From Mitsuokella jalaludinii DSM 13811 (GTDB taxonomy: Bacteria > Bacillota > Negativicutes > Selenomonadales > Selenomonadaceae): a stretch of 57,718 bases of DNA. The translations under genes were made by a program, and so were the position numbers. The notes beneath the pieces are model-generated. The model was given only the letters and a program-made list of their open reading frames with translations. It had not been told where the DNA came from and did not search any database. The stretch is from NCBI RefSeq assembly GCF_000702905.1, contig NZ_JNKR01000014.1:1-57718 (forward strand). Direction: 5' to 3'. Positions 43,640-57,718 of the stretch are shown piece after piece (the stretch's first letter is position 1; the number at the start of each line of letters is the position of its first letter).

Positions 43640-44518
43640 TTGAAGAAGCTCGTGCTCTTCTACAATCCTGTTTCAGGGCATGCGGCGTTCAAGAATAAGC
43701 TCGACTGGATGGTCGAGGCTTTTCAGCGCCGCGGCATCCTCGTCGTCTTTTACCGCACGCGCAAGGAGGGCAATGAGGCCTTCATCCCGTTCGTGCGCGA
43801 GGTGAATCCTGACGGCCTGCTCGTCGCAGGCGGCGACGGCACGGTCCATGAGATCGTCAACCTCATGATGAGGGGCCATCTCGACTTGCCGCTCGGCATC
43901 ATCGGCAGCGGCACGTCGAATGACTTTGCGACGTATCTCGGCGTCAATGCGGACCTTGAGGCGTACCTCGATACCATCGTCTCGGGCCGCTCGCGCCGCG
44001 TGGACCTCGGTCTCGTGGACGGCACGTACTTCATCAATGTCGCGAGCGGCGGCGCGATGGCCTGCATCGCGCACGAGGTCAATGTGCGCATCAAGAATTC
44101 GCTCGGCAAGATGGCGTACTACCTCAAGGGTATCGGGGATCTGCCGAAGTTCCGCTACTTTCCGCTCAAGATTGAGGCGGATGGGGCGCATTATGAGCTC
44201 GAGACGTTCCTCTTCGTCATCATCAATAGTCCGGTCGTCGGCAGCATGAAGAATGTGGCGCGCGGTGTGGCGGTCGATGACGGCAAGCTCGATCTGCTGT
44301 CAATCGGCAAGTGCAGCATCCCGAAGCTCATGAGCATCACGGCAGACCTCATCGCGGGCAAGCCGGTGTCGGAGCGGGAGAACGTGCTGCATGTGCAGGC
44401 GAAGTCGTTCCACATCGAGTCGGGCATCTCAGTCGAGAGCGACATCGACGGTGAGTGCGGGCCGATGTTGCCGCTGCGCATCGAGACCGTGCCGCGGGCA
44501 GTGGCGATTTACTGCTGA
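43640..44518 (+). CDS. Diacylglycerol-kinase-like lipid kinase (YegS/DgkB group)
   Basis: Phosphorylates a lipid such as diacylglycerol or undecaprenol-type substrates, at the membrane. NAD-kinase-like fold: LVLFYNPVSGHAAFKNKLD at the start, the nucleotide-binding GGDGTVHEIVNLMM (~64-77), IGSGTSNDFATYLG, DLGLVDGTYFINVASGGA, and the C-terminal IESDGE-like VESDIDGECG. 292 aa. The start is TTG, 8 bases after AGGGGG (43626-43631). Likely co-transcribed with the flippase gene; both would act on lipid carriers. A hairpin terminator follows at 44542. Confidence 0.92.
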   Translation: MKKLVLFYNPVSGHAAFKNKLDWMVEAFQRRGILVVFYRTRKEGNEAFIPFVREVNPDGLLVAGGDGTVHEIVNLMMRGHLDLPLGIIGSGTSNDFATYLGVNADLEAYLDTIVSGRSRRVDLGLVDGTYFINVASGGAMACIAHEVNVRIKNSLGKMAYYLKGIGDLPKFRYFPLKIEADGAHYELETFLFVIINSPVVGSMKNVARGVAVDDGKLDLLSIGKCSIPKLMSITADLIAGKPVSERENVLHVQAKSFHIESGISVESDIDGECGPMLPLRIETVPRAVAIYC

Positions 44519-44541
44519 AACACACCTACAACTGCATATAA

Positions 44542-44583
44542 AAAGGCTGCGCATCATGGTTACGATCGATGCGCAGTCTTTTT
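44542..44583. terminator. Bidirectional terminator between the lipid kinase and AAA ATPase genes
   Basis: A 14-bp stem with one wobble (about 44542-44555 with 44568-44581, core CTGCGCATC/GATGCGCAG), A-run on the left and TTTTT on the right. Confidence 0.85.
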
Positions 44584-44640
44584 CAGTATGGAATGGGTGT
44601 GCGTTCCGGCTTCAGCGTTCAGCCGAATGGTACCCCGGTA

Positions 44641-45888
44641 TTATGCATCGTGATCATCGAGCTGGCCGAGGTAGTGGGCGACGAACTGCTGGGCGGTGCG
44701 GCCGCTGCGGCCGCTGTGGGTCATTTCCCAGCGGACGCCTGCGATGCGCAGTTCTTCTGGCGTCAGCTTGATGCCCTCTTTGCGCAGCATGTGGTCGATG
44801 ATGGCGAGGTACTCTTTCTGGTCGGGAGCGTAGTACTGGATGATCAGGCCGAAGCGGTCGGAGAGGGAGATCGTCTCGTTCATGCTGTCGTCGCGGTAGA
44901 CGTCGTCCTGGCTCTCGCTGCGGTCGCGCCAGCTCTCGCGGATAAGGTGGCGGCGGTTGGAGGTAGCGTAAATGAGGACGTTCTCGGGGCGCGATTCGAC
45001 GCCGCCCTCGATGGCGGATTTGAGGTACTTGTACTCGGCATCGGATTCCTCGAAAGAGAGATCGTCGAGGAAGATGATGAAGCGCTTGCTGGCGAAGTAG
45101 CGCAGGGCGTCCATGATGTCGGGCAGGTGGCTGAGCTGGGGCTTGGTGAGCTGTAGGATGCGCAGGCCGCGGCTGTAGTAGACGTTGGCGAGGGCCTTGA
45201 CGGCGGAAGACTTGCCGGTGCCGCGTGCGCCGACGAGCAGGACGTTGTTGGCGGGCTTGCGCTGGACGAAGGCTTCGGTATTGTCAATCAGCTGCTCTTT
45301 CTGGTGCGCGTAGCCGATGATGTCTTCCATCTGCATGGCCTCGAAGTGGCGGATGCCGATGAGGCGCTGGAGCTTCGCATCCCAGCGGAAGGCTTTGAAG
45401 GAGGCGATGTCGCCGTAGCCGAAGCTCTGGTAGTAGCGCAGCAGGGCCTCGGCGAAATTTTCGGCAGTGCGGGCGTTCTTGAGCAGCTCTTCGAGTGCGG
45501 TCGAGGCCTCTGTGTGGAGCGGCACGGTCGGCTTGTAGGCGTCGAGTAGCGTCAGGTCGAGGTAGAGGCTCGCTGGCTCAGTCAGGAAGGGCAGGAGCAG
45601 CGTGAGGTCGTGCAGGAAGGCCTGCTTGAGGCTCGTCCCGACGGGGCTGTCGTGCATCTCGATGGTCTGGGCAGCGAGGTTGGGGTCGTGCACGAGCAGG
45701 TAGATGATGTAGCTGCGCAGCAGGTTGCCGTGCAGGCCGACATCTTCAGCCGTCTCGATGATTTTCGCGGCGCACGGCCCTGTCTGGCGCTTGTCGCCGT
45801 CGAGCACGGCCATCAACGATTGGATGGCCGTGTCATCGAGCAGGCTGCGGCAGATCAGCAGTTTGTGCAGATTCGGGTATTCAGACAT
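44641..45888 (-). CDS. DUF815 AAA+ ATPase
   Basis: ATP-binding protein of unknown role, 415 aa. The N-terminal ~180 residues are helical and unmarked. The DUF815 AAA domain has Walker A GARGTGKSSAVKAL (~220-233), Walker B RFIIFLDDLSFEE, an SRH-like ENVLIYATSNRRHLI, and the sensor region SDRFGLIIQYYAPDQKEYLA. The C-terminal end RSGRTAQQFVAHYLGQL is typical. AGGAGG lies 7 bases before ATG 45888. It has its own promoter (45936-45964) although it follows tmcAL by only 91 bases. Confidence 0.9.
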   Translation of the reverse strand: MSEYPNLHKLLICRSLLDDTAIQSLMAVLDGDKRQTGPCAAKIIETAEDVGLHGNLLRSYIIYLLVHDPNLAAQTIEMHDSPVGTSLKQAFLHDLTLLLPFLTEPASLYLDLTLLDAYKPTVPLHTEASTALEELLKNARTAENFAEALLRYYQSFGYGDIASFKAFRWDAKLQRLIGIRHFEAMQMEDIIGYAHQKEQLIDNTEAFVQRKPANNVLLVGARGTGKSSAVKALANVYYSRGLRILQLTKPQLSHLPDIMDALRYFASKRFIIFLDDLSFEESDAEYKYLKSAIEGGVESRPENVLIYATSNRRHLIRESWRDRSESQDDVYRDDSMNETISLSDRFGLIIQYYAPDQKEYLAIIDHMLRKEGIKLTPEELRIAGVRWEMTHSGRSGRTAQQFVAHYLGQLDDHDA

Positions 45889-45935
45889 GGTAATTCCTCC
45901 TGATAAAATGCATGTGTTAGTGAGATAGTCTCCTC

Positions 45936-45964
45936 ATTATACTCTGTATCGGCATGATTGTAAA
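45936..45964 (-). promoter_or_regulatory. Promoter for the DUF815 gene
   Basis: Minus strand TTTACA (45964-45959), a 17-base spacer, TATAAT (45941-45936). Confidence 0.75.
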
Positions 45965-45979
45965 CATGTAAACTGAGAT

Positions 45980-47251
45980 TCAGGCATGTGAGGCGTTCGT
46001 GAGGAAGTGCGGTGAGCTGGTGAAATCGCTCTGCTTGAGGCTCGCGAGCGGCGCTTCTGCGGGCAAGGCCAGGGCGCGCAGTTCGGTGGCCTTGGTGTCG
46101 AGGGCGAGCATCGCCTGCAGCGGTGTCAGGCAGCCTTCGAGGCGCTGGCGGGAGTTGAGTGCGGCGCTGACCTTGGTGATGAGGGGGAGCGTGCTGCGCT
46201 TCTTGATCTCGTGCAGGAGCTCGCGGCCTGTCTCGTCAAAGGTGAGCACGCGCGCGTATAGAGGGCCTGTCTCATCGGCGGTACGGGCAGCATGCTCCGT
46301 CGAACCGAGCAGCAGATGCGGGATGATGCGGCTGATACGGCTCGCGGGATAGCGGCTGGTGACCATCTTGGCGAGGAGTCCTGCAAGTGAACGGCTCTGT
46401 GCGCTTTTGGCGAGCAGCCGGTTCGCAAGCCCTTCCTGCAGGCCGAAGACCGCCTTGAGTTCGCCTTCCTGCATCGTCAGCAGCCGCGCGAGCAGGGGGG
46501 CAAAGAGACGCTCCGTCGAGGCAATCTCCGCGGGGCACGCCTGACGGATGGCAGCGTACGTCGCCTCGGGCAGGGACTCCTCCAGTGCCGCGAAGTCGGG
46601 CTGCGCTTTTGCGAGCTCTCTGCGGATAGCCGAGGCGCTGGCAAAGTGGCCGAGTGACGGCGCATGGTAGCCCGCGCCGCGCCGCGCGACTAGCAGCGGC
46701 TCGATGCCCGGTGCATAGTGCTGCAGTGCGCGCAGGTACTCGATGGCGAGGATGTTGTTGGGCTGCCGCAGAAGATCTGCCGCAAGGCCACTCTCCTGCG
46801 CTAAGATCGCAGTCAGGGCCTTTGCGTATGAAGCGCCTGCGCGCAGGGCTTCATGGAGCTTTGCCTGCGTCTCTGGTGCGTCGATGGCGCGGGCTGCTGT
46901 CATGAGCGGCGTGAGTTCGGGGCATTCCGCGCCAAAGGAAAGCGTCTCGACACAGCCAAGCCCCTGTAGCAGCCGCACGCCCCCGCGCGCAAAGTCCTGG
47001 GCGCTGCGGCAGGCAAAGAGGAAGGGCAGTTCGAGGACGAGCTGGCAGCCGCCGCGCACGGCGAGGTCCGCGCGTTGCCACTTGTCAAAGATTGCCGCCT
47101 CGCCGCGCTGCGTGAAACTGCCGCTCATCACCGCGATGATAGCCGCATCATCGTCAAAGCGGGAGCGCACGGATTCGCGGATGGCACGGAGCTGATAGGC
47201 GTGGCCCTGATGGAAGGGATTGTATTCGGCGATGATGCCAACGACATGCAT
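45980..47251 (-). CDS. tmcAL: tRNA(Met) cytidine acetate ligase
   Basis: Activates acetate with ATP and forms N4-acetylcytidine at the wobble base of elongator tRNA-Met. The nucleotidyltransferase start is VVGIIAEYNPFHQGHAYQL (HxGH-type motif), followed by AVMSGSFTQRGEAAIFDKWQ, LELPFLFACRSAQDFARGGV, LSFGAECPEL, and later PNNILAIEYLRAL. 423 aa, as in Bacillus YlbM/TmcAL. ATG 47251 is chosen, with AAGGAG 9 bases upstream; a longer in-frame start runs through the structured leader. The C-terminal part is Ala/Leu-rich and variable. Confidence 0.92.
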   Translation of the reverse strand: MHVVGIIAEYNPFHQGHAYQLRAIRESVRSRFDDDAAIIAVMSGSFTQRGEAAIFDKWQRADLAVRGGCQLVLELPFLFACRSAQDFARGGVRLLQGLGCVETLSFGAECPELTPLMTAARAIDAPETQAKLHEALRAGASYAKALTAILAQESGLAADLLRQPNNILAIEYLRALQHYAPGIEPLLVARRGAGYHAPSLGHFASASAIRRELAKAQPDFAALEESLPEATYAAIRQACPAEIASTERLFAPLLARLLTMQEGELKAVFGLQEGLANRLLAKSAQSRSLAGLLAKMVTSRYPASRISRIIPHLLLGSTEHAARTADETGPLYARVLTFDETGRELLHEIKKRSTLPLITKVSAALNSRQRLEGCLTPLQAMLALDTKATELRALALPAEAPLASLKQSDFTSSPHFLTNASHA

Positions 47252-47414
47252 AAGGAAGAGCTCCTTTCGTGTGATAACTAGATACGAATGTATGGCATGT
47301 ACCACGATCGATTCGATGTATGAGGTACTTGCGACAAGGGCCGGAACATATCCCCCCGCTCCCTTGCTGATGCACCGAGCCCCCAAGAATCAGCGGTGGG
47401 AATCATTTATTATA
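47252..47414 (-). promoter_or_regulatory. Structured leader of tmcAL with possible pseudoknot
   Basis: Minus-strand TATAAT (47414-47409) starts a leader of about 150 bases. CACCG (98-94 of the 473xx numbering, 47398-47394) can pair with CGGTG (47377-47373). GCTGAT (47394-47389) can pair with ATCAGC (47371-47366), giving interleaved stems like an H-type pseudoknot. A second stem AAGGG/CCCTT follows closer to the gene. No known riboswitch consensus was recognised. The rest of the 354-base gap (47415-47605) holds the mnmA promoter. Confidence 0.35.
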
Positions 47415-47474
47415 CAGACGTTTGCTGGATTCTTTATCTAGTCTAGCAGAAGCCCCCTTCCGCGTCCAATCTGT

Positions 47475-47503
47475 TTGGGCTTTTCCTGCGGATATGGTAT
47501 ACT
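47475..47503 (+). promoter_or_regulatory. Promoter for mnmA
   Basis: TTGGGC (47475-47480), a 17-base spacer and TATACT (47498-47503) preceded by TGG (extended -10). Confidence 0.6.
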
Positions 47504-47605
47504 AGGATATACGGGCAGTCATCGGGCTGTCTTTTTCATAGAAGGGAATCGGCTTGACCGATGTGTATAGATACGAAAGAAGAGAAGAAAGGATATGATA
47601 ACAGA

Positions 47606-48706
47606 ATGACGAAAAAGAAGGTAGTCGTCGCGATGAGCGGCGGTGTGGACAGCTCGCTTACGGCGGCGCTGCTCAAGGAGCAGGGCTATGAGGCCATCGG
47701 TGTGACGATGCGCCTGTCGGAGGAGAGCCGTGATTTTGATGAGAATGACCGCGGCTGCTGCAGTCTCAGCAGTGTTGACGACGCGCGCCGCGTGGCGGAG
47801 ATCATCGGCATCCCGCACTATGTCATGAATTTCAAGGAGATGTTCCAGGAGAAGGTTATCGACTACTTCCTGGCGGACTACGCGAAGGGATGGACGCCGA
47901 ATCCTTGCATCGCCTGCAACCGCTATGTCAAGTTCGAAGGCCTCCTGCAGAAGGCGATGGAGCTCGGCGCGGAATACGTTGCGACGGGGCACTATGCGCG
48001 CATCGGGCAGGATGAGACGGGCCGCTATGTGCTCAAGAAGGGCATCGACACACACAAGGACCAGTCGTACGCGCTCTACCACCTCAACCAGCAGTCGCTT
48101 GCGCACTTCCTGATGCCGCTCGGCGACTACACGAAGGTGGAGACGCGCGAGCTGGCGGAGCGCTACAAGCTGCCCGTCGCCCACAAGCCGGACAGCCAGG
48201 AGATCTGCTTTGTGCCGCATGATGACTACAAGGCATACCTGCGCGCGAAGAACCCCGCCTGCCTGCATCCGGGCGACATCGTCGACACGGAAGGCCATGT
48301 ACTCGGCCATCACGAGGGCGTGCCGCTCTACACGATCGGCCAGCGCAAGGGACTCGGCATCGCGCATCCGGAGCCGCTCTACGTCGTGAACCTCGACATG
48401 GCGCACGACCGCGTCATCGTCGGCGGAGCAAAGGATGTCTATGCGGACGGCCTCATAGCGGGCGACCTTAACTGGATTGCCATCGATGCACTCGAGGCGC
48501 CCATCGCGGTCACGGCCAAGGTACGCTACGGCCGTCGCGAAGGCCGCGCGCATGTCGAGCCGCTTGTGGGTGGCAAAGTGAAGGTTCGCTTTGAAGAGCC
48601 GCAGCGCGCGGTGACGCCGGGGCAATCGGTCGTCTTCTACGACGGCGATACGGTCGTTGGCGGCGGCATCATCGAGAAGGCACTGCGGAAGGGGGAAGAG
48701 GTATGA
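47606..48706 (+). CDS. mnmA: tRNA 2-thiouridine synthase MnmA
   Basis: Thiolates U34 of tRNA-Lys, -Glu and -Gln. The ATP pyrophosphatase loop is AMSGGVDSSLTAALL (residues ~9-23); the first catalytic Cys is in TPNPCIACNRYVKF and the second in DSQEICFVPHDDY. ATGHYARI, KDQSYALYHL and YTIGQRKGLGI are family landmarks, and the C-terminal barrel ends FYDGDTVVGGGIIEKAL. 366 aa. The preferred ATG is 47606, with a weak AAGGA 12 bases upstream; the in-frame GTG at 47561 has no site. The stop overlaps the ATG of the NYN gene. Confidence 0.97.
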   Translation: MTKKKVVVAMSGGVDSSLTAALLKEQGYEAIGVTMRLSEESRDFDENDRGCCSLSSVDDARRVAEIIGIPHYVMNFKEMFQEKVIDYFLADYAKGWTPNPCIACNRYVKFEGLLQKAMELGAEYVATGHYARIGQDETGRYVLKKGIDTHKDQSYALYHLNQQSLAHFLMPLGDYTKVETRELAERYKLPVAHKPDSQEICFVPHDDYKAYLRAKNPACLHPGDIVDTEGHVLGHHEGVPLYTIGQRKGLGIAHPEPLYVVNLDMAHDRVIVGGAKDVYADGLIAGDLNWIAIDALEAPIAVTAKVRYGRREGRAHVEPLVGGKVKVRFEEPQRAVTPGQSVVFYDGDTVVGGGIIEKALRKGEEV

Positions 48707-49713
48707 CACTGGAATCCAGCAATACGACGGTCGGCATCCTCTACGACATTGAGAATGCGCCGTTTGAGATGCTCAACTACACACTCGGTAAGGCGCGCCG
48801 ATTCCAGCCGTGCCGCACGATCGTGATTTCGGATTGGGAGGAGCGCCCCGAACAGAAGCGCTGGGAGAAGCTCCTGCGCCGTCCGGGCTTCACGTTCCGC
48901 CAGATCAGCAGGACCTTCCTCGGCAAGAACTCGCTGGACTCGGCCCTCTACGATTCGGCAAAACTGCTCTACGAAGAGGGCGTGCGCCGCTACTTCATCA
49001 TCACGACGGACTCGGATTTCGTGCGCATCGCGCAGATGCTCAACTCGAAGGAGAAGTCCTATATCATCGGTGTTGGCACGAAGCAGGCCAGTGAGACATT
49101 GCGCAATGCCTACGATGAATTCATCGTGTATCCAGCGGAGGAGAAAGAGACTGTGAGAAAGAAACACGCGCGCAAGGGCGCAGAGGCGGGCGAGAAGGCT
49201 GAAGTGGCTCTCGAGCAGACTGATACCAAGAAAGCCGAGCCGAAAAAGGATGCCAAGTCCAAGAAGGCCAAGGCAAATAAAGCCGAGAAGAACGAGAAGG
49301 AAAAAGCGGTGAAAGCCGAGAAGCAGGAAAAAGCGGCCAAGGCCGCAAAAGCTGCAAAAGAAACGAAGAATACAAAAGAGGTAAAAGAAGCAAAGGAGGC
49401 AAAGCCTGCCAAGGCTGCAAAGCAGGTGAAAGCCGCAAAACCGGCTAAGAATGCGAAGCCGGGCAAAGCGGTGAAAGCCGAGAGCGCCGAGAAAGCAGAG
49501 CAGGCCAATCATCAGGAAGCTGCGACTGCACCGGTGCCATCCCCTGCGGTCCAGCATGAGCACAAGAGCAAGGCGGCCGCACTGCCGGAAGGCACGTTTG
49601 TCGTGCGCCTGCCGAAGACGCTTCGCAAGCAGCTCGAAGCGCGCATGCAGGAAGAGGAAGTCACGATGGATGAACTCATCACGTATCTTTTGACGCGCGG
49701 TCTCTCCCGATGA
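48703..49713 (+). CDS. NYN nuclease with Lys/Ala-rich linker and RHH-like C-terminus
   Basis: Three-part protein of 336 aa. Residues ~8-148 are a NYN/PIN-like domain: VGILYDIENAPFEMLNYTLG with acidic Asp-Glu-Asn, DSALYDSAKLLYEEGVRRYF and TTDSDFVRIAQML, giving the usual acidic metal site. Residues ~150-270 are low complexity, dominated by Lys, Ala and Glu in heptad-like KA repeats, like histone H1 tails. The last ~45 residues (GTFVVRLPKTLRKQLEARMQ, then EVTMDELITYLLTRGL) look like a ribbon-helix-helix DNA-binding domain. The start overlaps the mnmA stop (ATGA). A predicted RNase on a DNA-binding tail is unusual. The target is unknown; its neighbour suggests a link to tRNA. Confidence 0.82.
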   Translation: MTLESSNTTVGILYDIENAPFEMLNYTLGKARRFQPCRTIVISDWEERPEQKRWEKLLRRPGFTFRQISRTFLGKNSLDSALYDSAKLLYEEGVRRYFIITTDSDFVRIAQMLNSKEKSYIIGVGTKQASETLRNAYDEFIVYPAEEKETVRKKHARKGAEAGEKAEVALEQTDTKKAEPKKDAKSKKAKANKAEKNEKEKAVKAEKQEKAAKAAKAAKETKNTKEVKEAKEAKPAKAAKQVKAAKPAKNAKPGKAVKAESAEKAEQANHQEAATAPVPSPAVQHEHKSKAAALPEGTFVVRLPKTLRKQLEARMQEEEVTMDELITYLLTRGLSR

Positions 49714-49758
49714 TAGCGATGACAGATGGACAATGATTGATGGAAAGGATATATACAA

Positions 49759-50202
49759 ATGAAACGAGAAGAACTGGTCCTGTTCTACCAATTCCGTGAT
49801 GACGAGAAGCTCGCGCTCGCACAGAAGACGCTGCACCGCCTCGGCATACACACAAAAGTGCTGCCGGAAGAGGCGTGGCGCGAGAAGATCGGCTATTTGC
49901 TGGGCCTCAAGGGCTTCCGCGCGGCCAATCCAGAGGATTACGAAGGCGACCCGTTCGTCTTCCCGCATGAGGTCATGGTCCTGCAGCACATCCGCAACAA
50001 GCGCCTCGACGCCGTTCTCAAGGCCCTTAAGGACGCCGGTGTGCCGCAGGTCCACTACAAGTCGGTCGTCACGCCGTTCAACACGCTCTGGACACTGCGC
50101 CGCCTTTGCGAGACGATGCAGAAGGAGCATGCGGCGATGATCGAGATGGAAGAAGTGAAGGAAAAGAAGAAGCAGGAGGCTGCAGGCGACGGCGATGAAT
50201 GA
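49759..50202 (+). CDS. DUF3783 protein
   Basis: Unknown function, 147 aa, soluble. It begins MKREELVLFYQFRDDEKLAL and has the DUF3783-like core VMVLQHIRNKRLDAVLKALK, then DAGVPQVHYKSVVTPFNTLW, and a charged helical C-terminus with many Glu and Lys. GGAAAGG at 49742-49748 lies 10 bases upstream of the start. It is 45 bases after the NYN gene and overlaps the next gene by 8 bases, so the group mnmA-NYN-DUF3783-coiled-coil gene looks like one operon. Confidence 0.8.
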   Translation: MKREELVLFYQFRDDEKLALAQKTLHRLGIHTKVLPEEAWREKIGYLLGLKGFRAANPEDYEGDPFVFPHEVMVLQHIRNKRLDAVLKALKDAGVPQVHYKSVVTPFNTLWTLRRLCETMQKEHAAMIEMEEVKEKKKQEAAGDGDE

Positions 50203-51142
50203 CACGAAACGCGATCTGAGCAAGGGCGCAGGCGGGAAGCCGGAGAGACCCGGTGCGGCGGGAAAAGCTGAACCAGTGGATCGGACAGCAAGCCGTGGCC
50301 GCACGGCCTCGCTCGACAAGACAGCGCGCCTCGACGATACGCAGGAGTTGCCACCTGACCTTGCAGTTTCGGCAGCGACTGAGGAAGAGCCCATCCAACA
50401 GCCCTTCCCGCAGGCGGGCGGATCTGCAGCTGGCGGCGATGTGCGCGAGCTCGCACCCGACAAGGATCTGCGGGAACAGGCAAAGGAGCAAGCAGAGGGC
50501 AGGAAAAAACAGCAGAGCTGGCCCGTGCGCCACAAGAAGGCGCTGCTGCTCGGCGTCGGCTTCCTCATCGCTGTCTTCATCGGCTTTGCGCTCGCTGGCT
50601 ATCGCCAGGACCAGGCCGACCTCCAGAACAACGAGCGCCAGCATCAGGAACAGCAGATGCAGGAGCGCGCACAGAAGCTCGATGCACAGGAAAGCGACCT
50701 GCAGAAACAGCGCCAGGCTCTCGAGGCCAAGAAGAAGGCGCTCGAAGAGAAACAGCGCAGTCTCGAGCGTGAGCAGGGCCGCATTGAAGGGCGCGGTCAG
50801 GCCCTGCAGGACAGCGCCGATGGTGAATCGGGTGTCCAGAAGTTCCTCGACAAGGTGACAGGGCAGGCAGAGAAGAAGCAGAAGGCCGCAGAGGAGAACC
50901 GGCGGCAGGGTGCTGATGCCGCCGCATCAGCTGCCAGTGTGCAGCAATCCCTCGACGATGCCCAGTCGATGCTCGACGACGTCCAGCAGAAGCTCGACGA
51001 TGTGCAGTCCATGAAGAATGAGGCTGGCAGGGTCAAGGACAAGGCGGCGAGTGCGTATGCGGAAAACAAGGACACGATCGACACTGTGCTCTCCTATGCC
51101 AAGGAGGGCGCCGCGATGCTCGGCAATCTGCTGCTCCCGTGA
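50195..51142 (+). CDS. Single-pass membrane protein with long coiled coil
   Basis: Not recognised. 315 aa. The N-terminal ~110 residues are disordered and rich in Gly, Arg, Glu and Lys. A single membrane helix lies at ~115-134 (ALLLGVGFLIAVFIGFALAG). A long Gln/Lys/Glu coiled coil (~138-205) follows, then an Ala/Gln/Asp-rich helical part with repeats (SLDDAQSMLDDVQQKLDDVQ). The C-terminus is amphipathic (TIDTVLSYAKEGAAMLGNLL). Topology suggests N-in with the coiled coil outside the cytoplasm, perhaps spanning the periplasm. The start overlaps the DUF3783 gene. It could be a cell-envelope spacer or stress protein; no function is claimed. Confidence 0.7.
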   Translation: MNDTKRDLSKGAGGKPERPGAAGKAEPVDRTASRGRTASLDKTARLDDTQELPPDLAVSAATEEEPIQQPFPQAGGSAAGGDVRELAPDKDLREQAKEQAEGRKKQQSWPVRHKKALLLGVGFLIAVFIGFALAGYRQDQADLQNNERQHQEQQMQERAQKLDAQESDLQKQRQALEAKKKALEEKQRSLEREQGRIEGRGQALQDSADGESGVQKFLDKVTGQAEKKQKAAEENRRQGADAAASAASVQQSLDDAQSMLDDVQQKLDDVQSMKNEAGRVKDKAASAYAENKDTIDTVLSYAKEGAAMLGNLLLP

Positions 51143-51202
51143 GCCTGTGACAATGCGATACAGGTGTTGTGCAGGCATACTGGATAGAAAGGAAATGTGA
51201 AA

Positions 51203-52162
51203 GTGAAGATGAAGATTTGGAAACGAGTAGGCTGCCTCGCACTTGCAGCCGCGGCGATGCTCGCAGTCGCTGGCTGCGGCACGGGCAGCCAGTCGGCCGG
51301 CTCGGGCAAGATGCAGGAGCTTTCCATCGGCCTGATGCCGGATACGGACTCCCTGCCATTCCTGATTGCCGAAGAGAAGGGTTACTTTGCAGACGAAGGC
51401 GTCAAGGTCAATCTCAAGCCGTTCAAGAGCGCGATGGATCGTGATTCTGCCATGCAGAGCGGCCATCTCGACGGCGCTGTCTCCGACATGCTCGCCGCTG
51501 CCTTTGCCAAGGACGGCGGTTTCGATGTCAAGGTCACATCCTCGACGGACGGCAGCTACAAGCTCATCGCCGGCAAGGCAGAGCCTGCCGCAGATGTCAA
51601 GGGCCTGCGTGGCAAGGATGTCAGCGTCTCGCGCAATACGATCATCGAGTACGTGACGGACGAGATCCTCGCGAAGGATGGCCTGAAGGGCGATGACATC
51701 AACAAGGTCATCATCCCGCAGATCCCGACGCGCCTCGAGATGCTGCAGAACGGCAAACTCGCTGCCGCAACGCTGCCTGAGCCGATGGCCAGTATCGCCA
51801 TCTATAATGGCGGCCGCCTCCTCAAGAGCTCCGATGACCTCGGCATCAACCCGGGCGTCATCCTCTTCACGGATAAGGCCACCAAGGACAAGCAGAAAGA
51901 GATCCAGGCGATGTACCGCGCCTACAACCGTGCCGTCGATTACCTCAACAATGCGCCGCGTGAGGAATACATTGACTTCGTCATCGAGAAGGCCGGTTTC
52001 CCGCCTGCCGCCAAAGAGGCACTGAAACTGCCGACGTACCACAAGGCAGCACTGCCGAAGGAGCAGGACGTGACGGACTGCATCAAGTGGCTCAACGACA
52101 AAGATTTGGTAAAGGAGACGTACGGGTATGATGACCTCGTCATCAATCTGCTCGGCGAATGA
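51203..52162 (+). CDS. ABC transporter substrate-binding lipoprotein (NMT1/THI5-like)
   Basis: Receptor of an importer for nitrate, sulfonate, taurine or pyrimidine-type solutes; ligand unknown. Lipoprotein signal with lipobox LAVAGC (Cys at residue ~25). The NMT1/SsuA fold follows: LSIGLMPDTDSLPFLIAEEK, GYFADEGVKVNLKPFKSAMD, SGHLDGAVSDMLAAAFA and TLPEPMASIAIYNGG. The start is uncertain: GTG 51197, GTG 51203 (9 bases from AAGGA, chosen) or ATG 51209. Length ~319 aa. Its stop overlaps the ATPase gene (ATGA). There is no TPP riboswitch in front, so a thiamine-precursor role is not supported. Confidence 0.9.
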   Translation: MKMKIWKRVGCLALAAAAMLAVAGCGTGSQSAGSGKMQELSIGLMPDTDSLPFLIAEEKGYFADEGVKVNLKPFKSAMDRDSAMQSGHLDGAVSDMLAAAFAKDGGFDVKVTSSTDGSYKLIAGKAEPAADVKGLRGKDVSVSRNTIIEYVTDEILAKDGLKGDDINKVIIPQIPTRLEMLQNGKLAAATLPEPMASIAIYNGGRLLKSSDDLGINPGVILFTDKATKDKQKEIQAMYRAYNRAVDYLNNAPREEYIDFVIEKAGFPPAAKEALKLPTYHKAALPKEQDVTDCIKWLNDKDLVKETYGYDDLVINLLGE

Positions 52163-52974
52163 AATGGCATATGAATCCAACTGACATGATTGCATTCGAC
52201 CACCTGACGGTGCGCTACCGGAGTGCAGAGTGCGCTGCAGCTGCTGCGATTGCCGATGTCAGCCTGACCGTTCCGCAAGGAACGGTTTGTGCTATCATCG
52301 GCCCTTCAGGCTGTGGCAAGTCGACGCTCCTGCGGGCAGTGGCGGGGCTCGTGCGGCCTGAGGGCGGCTGCGTGAAGATTGCAGGCGGCAAGGCGGACCC
52401 GAAGAAGTACCGCATCGGCTTCATGCCGCAGAACTACGGCCTGCTGCCGTGGCAGACAGTGCGCGAGAACATCGTGCTGGGCTGCCGCATCCGCCACGAC
52501 TGGCACGCGGGCCGCGAGGAGGATGAAGCGAGGCTGGCGCGGCTCATGGCAGCACTCCACATCGAAGGGCTCGCCACGCGCTACCCGCATGAGCTCAGCG
52601 GCGGCCAGCAGCAGCGCGTGAGCCTCGCACGCTCTTTCCTGCTGCAGCCGGACATCCTGCTGATGGACGAGCCCTTCTCAGCGCTCGATGCCATCACGCG
52701 CGAGGAGATGCAGGATGTTTTCCTAGCGCTCTGGCAGGAGCAGCATGTCACGACGCTGCTCGTCACGCATTACGTCGAGGAGGCGCTCTACCTCGGGCAG
52801 AAGATCGCGCTGATGGCGGCAGATCCAGGCCGCATCGCTCGCGTCTTCGACAATTCGCTCGGCGGTTGCCCGGAAAAGCGCGGCAGCCGGGAATTCTTTG
52901 AGATGAGCCGTGCCCTGCGCGAAGAGATACGGGGCATCAGCGCACAGCATGCAGGAGAGGGGGCGGCGTCATGA
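52159..52974 (+). CDS. ABC transporter ATP-binding protein (SsuB/TauB/NrtD type)
   Basis: Energises the importer. Walker A GPSGCGKSTLLRAVAG (~48-63), Q-loop FMPQNYGLLPWQTVRENI, signature LSGGQQQRVSLARSFL, Walker B DILLMDEPFSALD, H-loop LLVTHYVEEALYL. 271 aa, usual for the taurine/sulfonate/nitrate group. It starts MKWHMNPTDM at 52159, overlapping the receptor stop by ATGA; the later in-frame ATG at 52171 is an alternative. Overlaps the permease gene by 4 bases. Confidence 0.95.
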   Translation: MKWHMNPTDMIAFDHLTVRYRSAECAAAAAIADVSLTVPQGTVCAIIGPSGCGKSTLLRAVAGLVRPEGGCVKIAGGKADPKKYRIGFMPQNYGLLPWQTVRENIVLGCRIRHDWHAGREEDEARLARLMAALHIEGLATRYPHELSGGQQQRVSLARSFLLQPDILLMDEPFSALDAITREEMQDVFLALWQEQHVTTLLVTHYVEEALYLGQKIALMAADPGRIARVFDNSLGGCPEKRGSREFFEMSRALREEIRGISAQHAGEGAAS

Positions 52975-53720
52975 AGGGCATCTCGCACACCCTGCTCTCA
53001 TACCTTACTGCAGCTGTCTTCCTGCTCGCAATCTGGTGGGGGCTCGCGCTGCTGCTCGAGCTGCCCATCGTGCCGACGCCCGATAAGGTGTTCGTGCGCT
53101 TGACAAACGTCTTCGCGCGCGACATCCTCGAGCACGCGGCCTACAGCCTCTGGCGCATTGCAGCAGGCCTCGGTTTGGCTGTCTGCATCGGCTATCCGCT
53201 CGGCGTCATCATGGGCTACTTCCGCCAGGCCGACCGCTTCCTGTCCCCGTTCGTCTACCTGACGTACCCCATCCCGAAGATCGCGCTGCTGCCAATCCTC
53301 ATGCTGCTCGCCGGTGTCGGCGAGCTATCGAAAATCCTCATGATCTTCCTGATCATCGTCTTCCAGGTCGTCGTGGCGGTGCGCGACGCCATCCGCACGC
53401 TGCCGGAGGAGCGCTATTATCCGCTCTACTCGCTCGGCGCCTCGCTTGGCCAGATCTTCCGTTTCGTCATCCTGCCGGCCTCCCTGCCGAAGTTCATCAC
53501 GGCCATCCGCGTCGCGATGGCGACGGCCGTCTCTGTGCTGTTCTTCACGGAGACGTTCGGCACGCAGTACGGCATGGGCTACTACATCATGGATGCCTGG
53601 CTGCGCGTCAACTACTTGGAGATGTACGCGGGCATCCTCGTCCTCAGCGTCATGGGCCTCCTGCTCTTCGGCATCATCGATTGCTTTGAGCATGTGGCTT
53701 GCCGCTGGCAGCGGAAGTGA
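52971..53720 (+). CDS. ABC transporter permease (SsuC/TauC type)
   Basis: Inner-membrane channel subunit with about six helices, 249 aa. The EAA loop region reads IRTLPEERYYPLYSLGASLG then QIFRFVILPASLPKFITAIR, close to SsuC/TauC. YPLGVIMGYFRQADRFLSPF and FLSVLFFTETFG-like SVLFFTETFGTQYGMGYYIM are also typical. Its start overlaps the ATPase stop (ATGA). The next gene starts 11 bases after it and seems to be part of the same transcript. Confidence 0.94.
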   Translation: MKGISHTLLSYLTAAVFLLAIWWGLALLLELPIVPTPDKVFVRLTNVFARDILEHAAYSLWRIAAGLGLAVCIGYPLGVIMGYFRQADRFLSPFVYLTYPIPKIALLPILMLLAGVGELSKILMIFLIIVFQVVVAVRDAIRTLPEERYYPLYSLGASLGQIFRFVILPASLPKFITAIRVAMATAVSVLFFTETFGTQYGMGYYIMDAWLRVNYLEMYAGILVLSVMGLLLFGIIDCFEHVACRWQRK

Positions 53721-53730
53721 GGCGCTTGGC

Positions 53731-55392
53731 TTGAAGAAATTTGTTTTTGTGGTGCTCATGCTGATCGTCGGCGCGGGCTGGGCCGGCTTCCATGCGCCTG
53801 AACTCTTGCCGCAGGCGCAGCGGTTGGCAGATGATGCGTTGAGTCACTTCGAGCGCGATGACGGGGCCATCCACGTCGAGGGCAGCGGCGCGGCCCTGCC
53901 GGATGTCAAGAAGGCGGCTTCTGCCTTTGACGGACTGACACAGGAAAAACTCAGCGCCGTGCGCCATCATTCTGTCCGCGTATTCGTGGCCGCTTCCGAT
54001 GCGGATTACCGCCGCATCCTCAAGGAAGAGTTCTCGCTCTCCGACGAGGAGGCGCAGGAGGTCGCCGCCATCTCGGGCGGCTGGTCGGGTGGGCGCCTGC
54101 ATGTCACGGCGGTCAACGCGAAGGCCGGCGTCATGGACAGCCATAGCGACCGCTATGCGACGACGGCGCACGAGCTCTTCCACCAGCTCCAGTACGAGCT
54201 GAGCCGCGGGCGCGACACGGACAAGGAAGCCTTGTTCTGGCTGGAAGAGGGCTCTGCTGACTATGTCGGCGCCATGATGGCCGAGCATCTCGGCGGCCGC
54301 AAGCTCGCGCGTTGGCAGAATGATGTGCTCGACAATCTCTTGGGCGCGCCGCACGCCGCGCGCCCCGACCAGCTCATCCACCTGGAATTTGCCGAGCGCA
54401 AGGCCATCATGGCAAAGGAATACCACGCCTACGAGATGGCCGACATGATGACCGTGCAGCTGCTTGCGCGCTTCCCCGAAGAGCAGCGCGGCCAGATACT
54501 CGCTGCTTACTTCACCGCTCTCGGTGAGGGAAAGTCAGGGGAGGAGGCGTTTGCGCAGACTTTCGGCCTGACGCTCGACGATTTCCTCCAGGAGTTTGCC
54601 GCCTGGTGGCAGGCGCAGAAGAGCGAGCCGGCCAAGATACAGATTGAGACAGGTGAAGGCGTGACCAACGCCCAGGCAGACGCCTACGCCGCCGAGGCCG
54701 AGGCCGTGCAGTCGCTCTTGCAGCGCCGCTTCGGCCAGACGCTGCGCGGCAGCTACACGCTCGTGCTCGCCAGTGGCAAAGAAGAGCTCGCACAGGCTGT
54801 CAGCGCGCGTTCTGATATGACGATCGATGAAGCGCGGAAGAATGTCGGCGAGAGCCTCTGGCTCGAGAACGGCAGCACGGTCTTCCTCGATGCGGCAGCA
54901 CTAGACTCGCGCCGCCAGCAGATCTTCAGTATGGGCGTCATGCTCACGCGCGTCATGGAGGCACAGGCCATGGGCGGCACCGAGCAGGAAGTCGCCTGGC
55001 TTGCGCGCGGCACGGCCTATCTCATCGGCACGCTGCGCCTCAGCGAGGAAGGGCTCGGCGGCTTCGAGGATTACCGCCGCAGCTGGCTCAGTGTGCTCCA
55101 GGAGAAGGGGCGCTTCCCCGATGGCGCAGACTTGACCGCGCCGAAATCGTATGAGCAGTCCGTCGCTTCATTTGGCGACGAGTCGTGCTCGCTCGTCGCG
55201 GAGCTCACGGCATACGATCTTCTGGCGCGCCGGGGCTGGGGCAGCTTTGCCAAGTGGATGCGCGCCACAAGTCTAGCGGGCGGCGACGGCGAGAAGGCCT
55301 TCCGCAGCACTTACGGGGAAGGCGCATCCGTCTACGCGTCAGCAGCGTCCACGAGGCTGCTCCGCGAGGTGCAGGACATGTATACACGCTAG
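53731..55392 (+). CDS. Exported gluzincin-type metallopeptidase with degenerate internal duplication
   Basis: 553 aa. An N-terminal signal or anchor (KKFVFVVLMLIVGAGWAGF) is followed by two related halves. Half 1 (~80-310) has HELFH (His147-His151) and WLEEGSADY (Glu172/Glu173), 24 residues apart, the pattern of gluzincin (peptidase MA-like) zinc sites. Half 2 (~335-553) repeats the layout: VMLTRVMEAQ in place of HELFH, WLARGTAYL (423-431) for WLEEGSADY, LTAYDLLARRG for MTVQLLARF, and GEKAFRSTYG for GEEAFAQTFG. Both zinc motifs are lost in half 2, so it is probably structural or substrate-binding. The start is TTG, with GAGG (53719-53722) 8 bases upstream. It sits in the ABC transporter operon; a functional link is possible but unproven. 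Confidence 0.8.
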   Translation: MKKFVFVVLMLIVGAGWAGFHAPELLPQAQRLADDALSHFERDDGAIHVEGSGAALPDVKKAASAFDGLTQEKLSAVRHHSVRVFVAASDADYRRILKEEFSLSDEEAQEVAAISGGWSGGRLHVTAVNAKAGVMDSHSDRYATTAHELFHQLQYELSRGRDTDKEALFWLEEGSADYVGAMMAEHLGGRKLARWQNDVLDNLLGAPHAARPDQLIHLEFAERKAIMAKEYHAYEMADMMTVQLLARFPEEQRGQILAAYFTALGEGKSGEEAFAQTFGLTLDDFLQEFAAWWQAQKSEPAKIQIETGEGVTNAQADAYAAEAEAVQSLLQRRFGQTLRGSYTLVLASGKEELAQAVSARSDMTIDEARKNVGESLWLENGSTVFLDAAALDSRRQQIFSMGVMLTRVMEAQAMGGTEQEVAWLARGTAYLIGTLRLSEEGLGGFEDYRRSWLSVLQEKGRFPDGADLTAPKSYEQSVASFGDESCSLVAELTAYDLLARRGWGSFAKWMRATSLAGGDGEKAFRSTYGEGASVYASAASTRLLREVQDMYTR

Positions 55393-55397
55393 CCCTC

Positions 55398-55426
55398 TTT
55401 ACAAATGGATGAGGCTGTGCTAACAT
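55398..55426 (+). promoter_or_regulatory. Promoter for glnA
   Basis: TTTACA (55398-55403), a 17-base spacer, TAACAT (55421-55426). Transcription would begin near 55433, giving a 140-base leader. Confidence 0.6.
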
Positions 55427-55433
55427 AGGGATT

Positions 55434-55543
55434 GTTCAAGCGGGTGCGCTCGAACGAGACGAATAGTCATATGGCAATGGCGCCATGCAGAGGTGATACT
55501 TCCGATTCGTATGATCTGGATGTTTTTTCTGCATGGCTTTTTT
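55434..55543 (+). promoter_or_regulatory. glnA leader: two hairpins and an overlapping terminator
   Basis: Hairpin 1 (55434-55455) pairs GTTC/GAAC and AGCG/CGCT. Hairpin 2 (55471-55486) is ATGGC/GCCAT around the hexaloop AATGGC, with A at loop position 1 and G at position 4, as in ANTAR-protein target hairpins. A terminator uses the 3' arm of hairpin 2: GCCATGCAG (55482-55490) pairs with CTGCATGGC (55529-55537), followed by T6. An inner stem lies near 55491-55517. The two structures exclude each other. The DNA ATGGCGCCAT (55477-55486) is also a perfect palindrome. Confidence 0.6.
55529..55543 (+). terminator. 3' arm and T-run of the glnA leader terminator
   Basis: CTGCATGGC followed by TTTTTT, pairing with 55482-55490; read-through is needed to express glnA. 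Confidence 0.6.
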
Positions 55544-55574
55544 GTTGCTTAATTTTAAAAAGGGTGGTATAAAC

Positions 55575-57461
55575 ATGGACGAGTTACTTTATGTGATTCC
55601 TGCAAACTCCGAAAAAGAAGAAATCCTGAACACGCTCAAAGCACATCCCGAGATCAAGTTCGTATCGTTGGTCGGCATCGATATGGCCGGCAACGATACG
55701 GATGAGAAGATCCCGATGCGCATCTTCCTCAAGGATATCGATGAGTTCTATGCTGGCACGGCTGTCCAGACGGATGGTTCTTCCGTCGTACTGACGGGCA
55801 TCGCCACCCTGAACAACGCGAAAGTCGATATGCCGGTCGATCCTTCCGTCAACTGGTTCGTCGACTACAACATGGAGAACTACGACGAGGAGACGGGCAA
55901 GCCAATCGGCACGCTGCGTATCCCGTCCTTCCTGATCCACGAAGGCAAGCGCGTCGATTCGCGCGCTGTCCTCGCTGACACGCTCGCCTATGTCAAGAAA
56001 GAGCTGATGGCCCTCTTCAAGGAGCACCCGCAGATCTCCGGCATCGAGAGCGTCAACGGCACGGATGTGACGGACATCCAGTTCACCTCCGCTACGGAGC
56101 TCGAGTTCTGGGTCAAGACGCCGCTTGAGGATGCTGCCATCGAAGAGATGTCTGCTTCGCAGGTTCTGCAGGAGCAGTACTGGGAGCGCACGCACGGCAT
56201 CGTCCGCACGGCTATGGAGCAGTGCCTGCTCGTCCTCGATAAATACGGCTTCAAGGTCGAGATGGGCCATAAGGAAGTCGGCGGTCTCAAAGCACAGATT
56301 GACGAGAGCGGCCGCATGACGCATGTCTGCGAGCAGCTCGAGATTGACTGGCGCTTTGCAGATGCCCTGCAGGCTGCCGACAATGAGCTCTTCGTCCGCA
56401 CGATCGTAAGAGAAGTCTTCCGCGGCATGGGCCTCGAAGTCAACTTCAAGGCAAAACCGATGATCGGCCTGGCTGGCAACGGCGAGCACACGCACATCGG
56501 CATGGCTGCCATCACGAAAGACGGCAAGCTCCACAACCTCTTCACGGCTGACGATCAGAAAAAAGACTTCATGAGCGCCATCGGCTACGGCTCCCTCATG
56601 GGCCTGCTCAAGAACTACGAGGTCATCAACCCGTTCGTCTCCGCTACGAACGATTCCCTCAACCGCCTCAAACCGGGCTTCGAGGCTCCGGTCTGCGTCG
56701 TCACGTCCCTCGGCCATACGCCGGAGATCCCGTCGCGTAACCGCACGATCCTCGCTGGCCTGATCCGCGATCTCAGCAACCCGTATGCAACGCGCTTCGA
56801 GCTGCGTGCATGCAACCCGTACACGAATACGTACCTCGTCCTCGCAGCCATCTACTCGGCTTGCCTCGACGGTGTCAAGGCCTGCGCTACGCATACGACG
56901 GCAGAATGCCTCGCCGAGATCTCCAAGGATGCCGGTGAAGAGGGCTTCTACCTCGAGAAAGACCGCGCATACCGCAGTGAAGACGATGTCTTCGAAGATT
57001 ACACGGAAGAAGAGCGCACGCGCCTCTTCGGTGCTCCGCCAGCTACGGTCTGGGAGAACATGCAGAACTTCGAGAACTACCCGGCAAAGCTCGCCGTCAT
57101 CACGGCTGGCGGCGCACTGCGTGACCAGATTATCGAAGCCTTCCGCGCTGGTGCTCTGACGCGCTGGAAGACCGAGCTCATCGCCCGCATCATCCCGGAG
57201 AACCGCGACATCGTCCGCGCAGCCAAGGAAGCCAAAACGGACTTCGTCACCGACCTCGATTCCTACAACTGGAACAAGATCAACGGCATCCGCAGCTACC
57301 TTGCCAAGGACAGCATCGATGAGAAGTCCCTCTTCACGCTCCTCATCAACGCCCTCAACGATGGCGATTACGCAACGGCATCCGGCCTGCAGGTCGAGAT
57401 GTACGACAAAGTCGAAGAGCTCAAGAGCCTCTACGACTCCTACGTCAAGAACATGATCTGA
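55575..57461 (+). CDS. glnA: Glutamine synthetase, long form
   Basis: Makes glutamine from glutamate, ammonia and ATP. 628 aa, longer than the ~445-aa Bacillus GlnA; relatives of this size occur in Clostridia and Negativicutes. N-terminal part: VSLVGIDMAGNDTDEKIPMR (beta-grasp region, ~35-100). Catalytic core: ATELEFWVKT with the metal-binding Glu, GHKEVGGLKAQID, GLAGNGEHTHIGM, NDSLNRLKPGFEAPVCVVTS, and NRTILAGLIRDLSNPYATRF as the glutamate/phosphate-binding part. The last ~120 residues are an alpha-helical extension. AGGGTGG at 55561-55567 is 7 bases before ATG 55575; the in-frame ATG at 55533 lies in the terminator. Likely nitrogen-controlled through the leader. Confidence 0.95.
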   Translation: MDELLYVIPANSEKEEILNTLKAHPEIKFVSLVGIDMAGNDTDEKIPMRIFLKDIDEFYAGTAVQTDGSSVVLTGIATLNNAKVDMPVDPSVNWFVDYNMENYDEETGKPIGTLRIPSFLIHEGKRVDSRAVLADTLAYVKKELMALFKEHPQISGIESVNGTDVTDIQFTSATELEFWVKTPLEDAAIEEMSASQVLQEQYWERTHGIVRTAMEQCLLVLDKYGFKVEMGHKEVGGLKAQIDESGRMTHVCEQLEIDWRFADALQAADNELFVRTIVREVFRGMGLEVNFKAKPMIGLAGNGEHTHIGMAAITKDGKLHNLFTADDQKKDFMSAIGYGSLMGLLKNYEVINPFVSATNDSLNRLKPGFEAPVCVVTSLGHTPEIPSRNRTILAGLIRDLSNPYATRFELRACNPYTNTYLVLAAIYSACLDGVKACATHTTAECLAEISKDAGEEGFYLEKDRAYRSEDDVFEDYTEEERTRLFGAPPATVWENMQNFENYPAKLAVITAGGALRDQIIEAFRAGALTRWKTELIARIIPENRDIVRAAKEAKTDFVTDLDSYNWNKINGIRSYLAKDSIDEKSLFTLLINALNDGDYATASGLQVEMYDKVEELKSLYDSYVKNMI

Positions 57462-57484
57462 TTGCCACCGGCAACCAGCGATAA

Positions 57485-57513
57485 AAAGGCACCGCCACGG
57501 CGGTGCCTTTTCT
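57485..57513 (+). terminator. Terminator of glnA
   Basis: A 12-bp stem AAAGGCACCGCC/GGCGGTGCCTTT (57485-57496 with 57499-57510) ending in TTTTC. Confidence 0.88.
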
Positions 57514-57685
57514 GTATGTCAAAATGGCAGGAGTTTGAAACGTCATGGCGAATACAGATAATGTATTAAGTCGCAGCTGCGACAAACGAATAAACAAGAT
57601 GAGATATCCGGTAAGAATACTTAAAAGTGAATGATTCTAGGAGCCAAAGGAGTAGGGAATGGCGTAGTTGTTGGGATTTTTTAGT
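57514..57685 (+). promoter_or_regulatory. Putative CRISPR leader
   Basis: AT-rich non-coding stretch between the glnA terminator and the first repeat. It carries two adjacent perfect dyads: AATACA-GATAA-TGTATT (57551-57567) and GTCGCAGCTGCGAC (57570-57583). It ends in a T-run (57677-57682) just before the repeat. Promoter and protein-binding sites are expected in such leaders, but the factors are unknown. Confidence 0.55.
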
Positions 57686-57714
57686 GTGAGCCCCGCACCC
57701 GCGGGGATGATCCC
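57686..57714 (+). CRISPR. First repeat of a type I-E-like CRISPR array (array continues past the window)
   Basis: A 29-base unit begins GTGAG, has the stem CCCCGC (57691-57696), loop ACCC and GCGGGG (57701-57706), and ends ATGATCCC. Length, stem and tail match type I-E repeats (the E. coli form also ends GATCCC-like after a CCCCGC/GCGGGG stem). Only four bases of the first spacer are visible, so repetition itself is not seen. No cas gene is present in the window; in type I-E they usually lie near the array, here possibly to the right. Confidence 0.75.
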
Positions 57715-57718
57715 AGCA

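Follow-up and report, generated by a model that had tools for sequence, protein, structure and literature searches.

Introduction

M1 aminopeptidases (PF01433) and other gluzincins, M61 among them, carry an HExxH motif followed 16-21 residues on by a glutamate, and a tyrosine lies further downstream. HExxH and a WxxEG region likewise occur together in PF13485, PF07607 and PF18958 of the Peptidase MA superfamily. Active peptidase domains are also known to be combined with inactive relatives. In M16 peptidases (pitrilysin, insulin-degrading enzyme and MPP) an active and an inactive homologous half are found in one chain or as a pair, and the M16 fold differs from the M1-like kind of the protein described here. 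According to PMC11266112 and PMC12731061, M16 enzymes carry the motif HxxEH and depend for their function on the inactive half. Carboxypeptidase D is a membrane-anchored chain that likewise combines active domains with an inactive homologue; it differs in belonging to family M14 and in being an animal protein with two active domains and an inactive third (PMC11266112). Both are precedents of principle.

Here we analyse a gene in a 57,718-nucleotide stretch of the Mitsuokella jalaludinii DSM 13811 genome (the window), for which the original prediction proposed a metallopeptidase made of an active half and a dead copy of itself. The protein shares with M1 enzymes and gluzincins the spaced HExxH and glutamate, the downstream tyrosine and, in models, the fold of its half 2. 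Unlike M1 proper, it has no M1 N- or C-terminal domain, falls below the Pfam cut-offs and pairs an active with a dead domain, and the GxMEN exopeptidase motif is absent from its family (0/46 family proteins and 0/66 domains). The HExxH and WxxEG region is shared with the three Peptidase MA families, whereas the window's best score against them is 16.1 bits (DUF5700, PF18958; cut-off 25) and half 2 is unmatched. The open-licence literature that we searched yielded, among the matches listed, no paper on the tandem protein, no biochemistry on its family, and no useful paper on TAF2 as a dead M1 protein. The principle of joining an active domain to a dead one is known; those matches contained no description of this family, its age or its graded decay.

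Results

The tandem gene and its product

The features of the gene are as follows.

53713..53722, + strand: purine-rich GGAAGTGAGG before the start, a candidate ribosome-binding site with the same letters in M. multacida
53731..55392, + strand: tandem peptidase/pseudo-peptidase gene, 553 aa, TTG start at 53731, stop codon 55390-55392
53731..53793, + strand: residues 1-21, a hydrophobic N-terminus read from the sequence as a probable anchor or signal sequence
53878..54618, + strand: half 1, putative catalytic domain (residues 50-296 as compared)
54169..54183, + strand: HELFH, zinc-binding and catalytic motif by sequence, residues 147-151; H147, E148 and H151 invariant in 41/41 full-length relatives
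54247..54249, + strand: E173 within WLEEGSADY (170-178), third zinc ligand by position; 41/41
54430..54432, + strand: Y234, candidate catalytic tyrosine; 41/41 full-length relatives
54625..55353, + strand: half 2, putative pseudo-peptidase domain (residues 299-541)
54937..54951, + strand: VMLTR (403-407), counterpart of HELFH, with R407 at the place of the second histidine (39/41)
54997..55020, + strand: WLARGTAY (423-430), counterpart of WLEEGSAD, with R426 at the place of the zinc glutamate; W423, G427 and Y430 in 41/41
55189..55191, + strand: S487, at the place of Y234 by alignment

Re-reading the sequence bore out the coordinates and motifs originally given, namely HELFH, WLEEGSADY, TRVMEA (406-411), WLARGTAYL (423-431), LLAR (at 244 and 497) and GEKAFRSTYG, the last of which lies near the end of half 2 just as GEEAFAQTFG lies near the end of half 1. 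The prediction of two domains also stood; its limits for them (80-310 and 335-553) place each start about 35 residues too late, and the domains extend over about 45-296 and 299-541. The catalytic role of Y234 is one that we assume by analogy with M1. Because residues 1-21 are hydrophobic, the protein is probably exported or membrane-anchored; a similar N-terminal stretch is seen in many relatives, whose starts were picked by a script that itself preferred such starts. The nearest named relative found is a protein of Mitsuokella multacida DSM 20544, which is 80-81% identical and has GTG at the aligned start, and the single match in the window's own genome is the tandem gene itself.

Homology of the two halves

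Compared as single sequences, the halves gave a Smith-Waterman score of 65 against 36.6 +/- 6.0 for shuffles (0/1000 as high in 1000 shuffles) and a weak blastp match (E 0.08). Since this similarity is modest, relatives were gathered. Of 151 genomes from the window's taxonomic family, 48 gave a match at E 0.001; in the class, 70 of 380 genomes did so at E 0.01 in a profile search, a count that includes stand-alone domains. The family alignment comprises 46 proteins, of which 41 are full length and five end early in half 2; it leaves out L001 (the window's own copy), L031 (on the same contig as L002) and L048, L049 and L050 (contig-end or two-frame pieces), and its L002 row is ~110 residues too long at the N-terminus, outside the compared parts.

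With these profiles the similarity became decisive. Aligned by hhalign, the 41 half 1s and 41 half 2s matched in register over 230-233 columns (probability 99.0, E 4.9e-18); with half 2 reversed the probability was 0.1, and none of 40 column shuffles exceeded 11.6. Furthermore, a profile of 14 single-domain active peptidases from other families matched both half 1 (E 4.0e-39) and half 2 (E 3.4e-24), which points to an active peptidase domain as the ancestor of half 2. Sequence comparison therefore supports two homologous domains, the second descended from a once-active zinc-peptidase domain whose ligands have been lost.

Two further explanations were considered and rejected. Chance similarity of the halves is ruled out by the shuffles, the reversed control and the stand-alone profile that matches both; a pseudogene or frame artefact is ruled out by the open reading frame and because dN lies far under dS in each half.

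Catalytic residues are kept in half 1 and replaced in half 2

H147, E148, H151, E173 and Y234 are all invariant in the half 1 of the 41 full-length relatives. The spacing is HExxH-X21-E in 44 of 46 family members and X19 in the other two, and HExxH with a glutamate shortly downstream, the mark of a gluzincin, is present in 41/41. No family protein has HExxH in half 2 (0/46). In the window the five catalytic places of half 2 are occupied by V403, M404, R407, R426 and S487, two arginines and two hydrophobic residues among them; at the R426 position the 41 half 2s read R in 32, H in six, N in two and Y in one. Half 2 is thus homologous to a catalytic domain and lacks its catalytic residues, as pseudo-peptidases do.

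The same division holds in the 66 domains of the tree set described below, where a complete H-E-H-E-Y was found in 21/23 half 1s and 15/17 stand-alone domains, as compared with 0/22 half 2s and 0/4 outgroup domains. In the four outgroup domains and the remaining two single domains H-E-H-E is retained and the aligned column has no Y; in the two failing half 1s (L084 and L085) HExxH and the tyrosine are gone and the glutamate is still present. Among the 22 half 2s, which extend beyond the core clade, the R407 place is also filled by S, K or Q, and the R426 place by N, A, L, Y or E beside R or H.

Individual half 2s retain further residues. That of the tandem L087:4942-6591 reads WLYEGTA and keeps the glutamate and a tyrosine, HExxH being lost, and that of L082 still has a tyrosine.

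Family assignment and fold

The window protein stays below the cut-off of every Pfam and NCBIfam model. Half 1 has sub-threshold Pfam matches only: PF01433 scores 14.1 bits for the protein against a cut-off of 27.7 and DUF1570 scores 14 against 22, with no match to PF13485. For half 2 of the window, relaxing the threshold to E 10 still brought up no Pfam family. When hits with E as high as 1 are counted, 12, 13 and 20 of 24 members match PF13485, PF07607 (DUF1570) and PF18958 (DUF5700), respectively. In sequence searches of solved structures the tandem profile found nothing credible, and the stand-alone profile found M1 aminopeptidases (best E 0.00025). Judged from its sequence, half 1 is most likely an M1-like (gluzincin) zinc peptidase.

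The structure predictor was given the window and L031 (M. multacida) proteins only. Its full-length model is poor (mean pLDDT 48.0, pTM 0.37), with residues 110-240 of half 1 below pLDDT 50. This model was built without any alignment of half 1 to half 2, and its region 298-516 aligned in VIA with 6oiu (Z 9.1, rmsd 4.7, 168 residues). The top VIA row was 1oz9 (Z 9.4), which we take to be a YbeY-type protein, and the matches of the half-2 region comprise M1 aminopeptidases and other zinc peptidases. Foldseek returned nothing at E 0.001 for the full-length model and no peptidase among the best 50 rows. A model of half 2 from a four-row alignment (pLDDT 67.9, pTM 0.60) aligned in VIA with the M1 structure 4qhp (Z 10.8, rmsd 4.3, 191 residues), and its best Foldseek match was an M61 enzyme at E 0.021, with nothing at E 0.001; because its alignment includes half 1, these matches are not independent of the homology between the halves.

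The best VIA Z values expected by chance are 7 to 8, and values below about 13 for mostly helical models may reflect a common arrangement only, so that support for an M1-like fold of half 2 is moderate. The M1-like matches cover half 2, and half 1 is the poorly modelled part. Of the two outcomes that would have spoken against the original prediction, a lack of statistical similarity is contradicted by the profile comparison, and different folds of the two halves are not indicated by these models, weak as they are.

Spread and decay of the tandem

Proteins with both halves were found in six other families of the class, and a full half 2 is kept at 7/8 tandem-type loci there. A tandem whose second half is dead too was also found outside the class, in one genome, with the stand-alone profile (L135). 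The active-plus-dead arrangement is old. Single-domain relatives in other families have HExxH with WxxEG or WxxEA and match both half profiles; most of their open frames span 273-324 residues, with 425 for L101, 458 for L107 and a 192-residue piece for L106. No relatives were seen on viral contigs (34 pattern matches, none of them a relative), and the plasmid search gave no match.

Loss has occurred repeatedly. Half 2 is cut short in five of the 46 family proteins (L032, L039, L041, L042 and L043), which belong to two genera. L086:4989-5762 consists of half 1 alone, has no half-2 remnant downstream, and groups in the tree with the half 1 of the tandem L083. In L084:4828-6519 and L085:4856-6577, both of one genus, HExxH is absent from both halves and the proteins look wholly dead from their sequences; some descendants therefore appear to manage without the proposed catalysis.

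Selective constraint differs between the halves. Against M. multacida (Nei-Gojobori), dN is 0.081 and dS 0.60 in half 1, as compared with 0.167 and 0.61 in half 2 (dN/dS about 0.27), indicating purifying selection on both halves, the stronger on half 1. Column entropy is 1.93 bits in half 2 versus 1.61 bits in half 1. Five half-2 residues, W423, G427, Y430, A368 and S375, do not vary over the 41 members, and R407 and Q412 hardly do; ranked by entropy among 243 half-2 columns, R407 is 13th and R426 46th.

Origin of half 2

The tree set holds 66 domains; L106, L108, the near-copies L092 and L102, and seven of the 21 family members that had been cut into domains were dropped from it. A single branch separates all 22 dead halves from the other domains (93/90, not starred; recovered in 96% of 200 bootstrap trees), and their single origin is therefore likely. 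In the same tree the active halves come out with the five single domains that carry HEIFHQ or HELFHQ (93/91, not starred) and the dead halves with eleven other stand-alone domains (92/84, not starred). In the 66-row tree the active halves fail to form one clade (two changes), and a single clade of them is not rejected (p 0.568).

Constraining both halves together costs 17.9 log units in the 66-row set, at a borderline p-AU of 0.0545. The same constraint gives p-AU 0.0252 with 56 rows, a set from which ten long or odd rows were removed post hoc, after the first tree; in the 56-row tree the grouping of dead halves with single domains is starred (99/97). A clade of both halves together with the five HEIFHQ/HELFHQ domains is not rejected (p 0.508), the tree held to it being 0.85 log units higher, and we therefore do not claim a fusion of paralogues. 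Internal duplication and fusion of two paralogues are both compatible with the tree tests. Of the predicted "dead copy of itself", then, the homologous half without zinc ligands holds; "of itself" fits a duplication, yet fusion of paralogues fits too.

The ABC importer is a common neighbour

Three importer genes precede the tandem gene.

51197..52162, + strand: NMT1/SsuA-like substrate-binding protein (PF09084, E 3.5e-19; TIGR01728, E 4e-25, below cut-off)
52159..52974, + strand: ABC importer ATPase (PF00005, E 2.6e-33)
52971..53720, + strand: ABC importer permease (PF00528, E 1.7e-22), ending 10 bases before the tandem gene

Further upstream (48703-51142) lies a recurrent block made up of genes for an NYN-domain protein, a DUF3783 protein and a coiled-coil-like protein that fits no clear family; another gene upstream of the importer is presumably mnmA, and glutamine synthetase lies downstream of the tandem gene. 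A search for a riboswitch upstream of the importer gave no Rfam match at the gathering score anywhere in 44000-57718.

Flanks were read in 38 of the 48 matching family genomes (nine others and the window's own stand outside the count), and G081 has no upstream sequence, leaving 37 informative genomes. The permease lies upstream in 29 of these, adjoining the tandem gene in 28 and 1.5 kb off in one. Of the eight family genomes without the linkage, five have a binding-protein homologue elsewhere and three have none at E 1e-20; in those three (L119, L120 and L123) the tandem gene comes after the coiled-coil-like gene, and no importer genes separate them. Conversely, the binding protein is still present in 9/14 checked family genomes without the tandem gene. 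At tandem-type loci in other families the same permease was found upstream in 0/8 (2.6-4.9 kb read). The linkage on which the original prediction remarked is thus real and common in the family, and it is separable: the importer is a common neighbour and not a necessary partner.

Some loci have surroundings of their own. About 1.5 kb separates the permease from the tandem gene at L114 (G092), and the genes after L084 encode a PnrA-like binding protein together with an ABC ATPase, a different importer type. The sole common theme among ten neighbours of tandem genes in other families or outlying genera is a purple-acid-phosphatase-like gene after L080 and L082.

Discussion

On balance we lean, by a little, towards an exported or anchored M1-like zinc peptidase in which half 1 cuts and half 2 is a working pseudo-subunit. 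Half 1 would bind zinc and cleave peptide bonds outside the cytoplasm, as its conserved motifs suggest. Half 2, in the same chain, may line the substrate cleft or hold half 1 in its working shape, by analogy with the inactive half of M16 peptidases, and the upstream importer genes would be usual neighbours that the protein does not need for its work. The original prediction likewise suggested that half 2 might be used for substrate binding or regulation. Against a working half 2 stand its shortening in 5/46 proteins and its absence from L086, and the two-half model (mean pLDDT 48.0) is too poor to reveal contact or a shared cleft. Because half 2 has been lost naturally in some lineages, its role can evidently be dispensed with.

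The same losses would fit a slowly eroding remnant with no function of its own, tolerated because part of it gives half 1 a surface to fold against, and so would the dN of half 2, double the half-1 value while dS is the same, and its higher entropy. Yet its dN/dS is still about 0.27, five of its columns are invariant over 41 members with R407 and Q412 nearly so, and a full half 2 is kept in 41/46 family proteins and 7/8 tandem-type loci elsewhere; we consider a mere remnant unlikely, while giving it real weight. A new binding job for half 2, as a sensor or substrate clamp in which R407 and often R426 hold an anionic ligand or peptide carboxylate, is suggested by the arginines at the former ligand places (39/41 and 32/41), near the invariant W423, G427 and Y430. 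Pseudo-active sites are used for binding in other metallopeptidase homologues, according to PMC11266112. However, R426 ranks only 46/243 by entropy, both positions vary among the tree set's 22 half 2s, and the side chains may merely fill the hole left by zinc, so that we regard this explanation as quite doubtful. A half 2 that still catalyses, with different metal ligands or by a different mechanism, is compatible with the sequence alone; with all five catalytic positions replaced in the window (V403, M404, R407, R426 and S487) it is scarcely credible.

NMT1/SsuA-type binding proteins take small molecules rather than peptides, which counts against the proposal that the tandem protein serves the importer by trimming peptides or the binding protein for uptake. 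A permease upstream in 29 of 37 informative genomes, 28 of them adjoining, is what such service would lead one to expect; its absence from all eight tandem-type loci elsewhere, the PnrA-type importer downstream of L084, the three of eight unlinked genomes without the binding protein and the 9/14 genomes that keep it without the tandem gene make the proposal very improbable.

A more specific idea for the core clade, which we offer as a long shot, is that the zinc site was remade into an anion or carboxylate pocket of two arginines, at two of the three zinc-ligand places, with the invariant W423 and Y430, which would hold the substrate end while half 1 cuts. If true, a metal site would have turned into an organic-anion site inside one chain, and the doubly dead members could be pure receptors.

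The proteins of this one bacterial family form a graded natural series: stand-alone active domains, active-plus-dead tandems, L087 with its glutamate kept, proteins with a part-lost half 2, L086 with half 1 alone, and L084 and L085 with both halves apparently dead. The purpose and the retention of a pseudo-enzyme half are therefore testable by comparing relatives.
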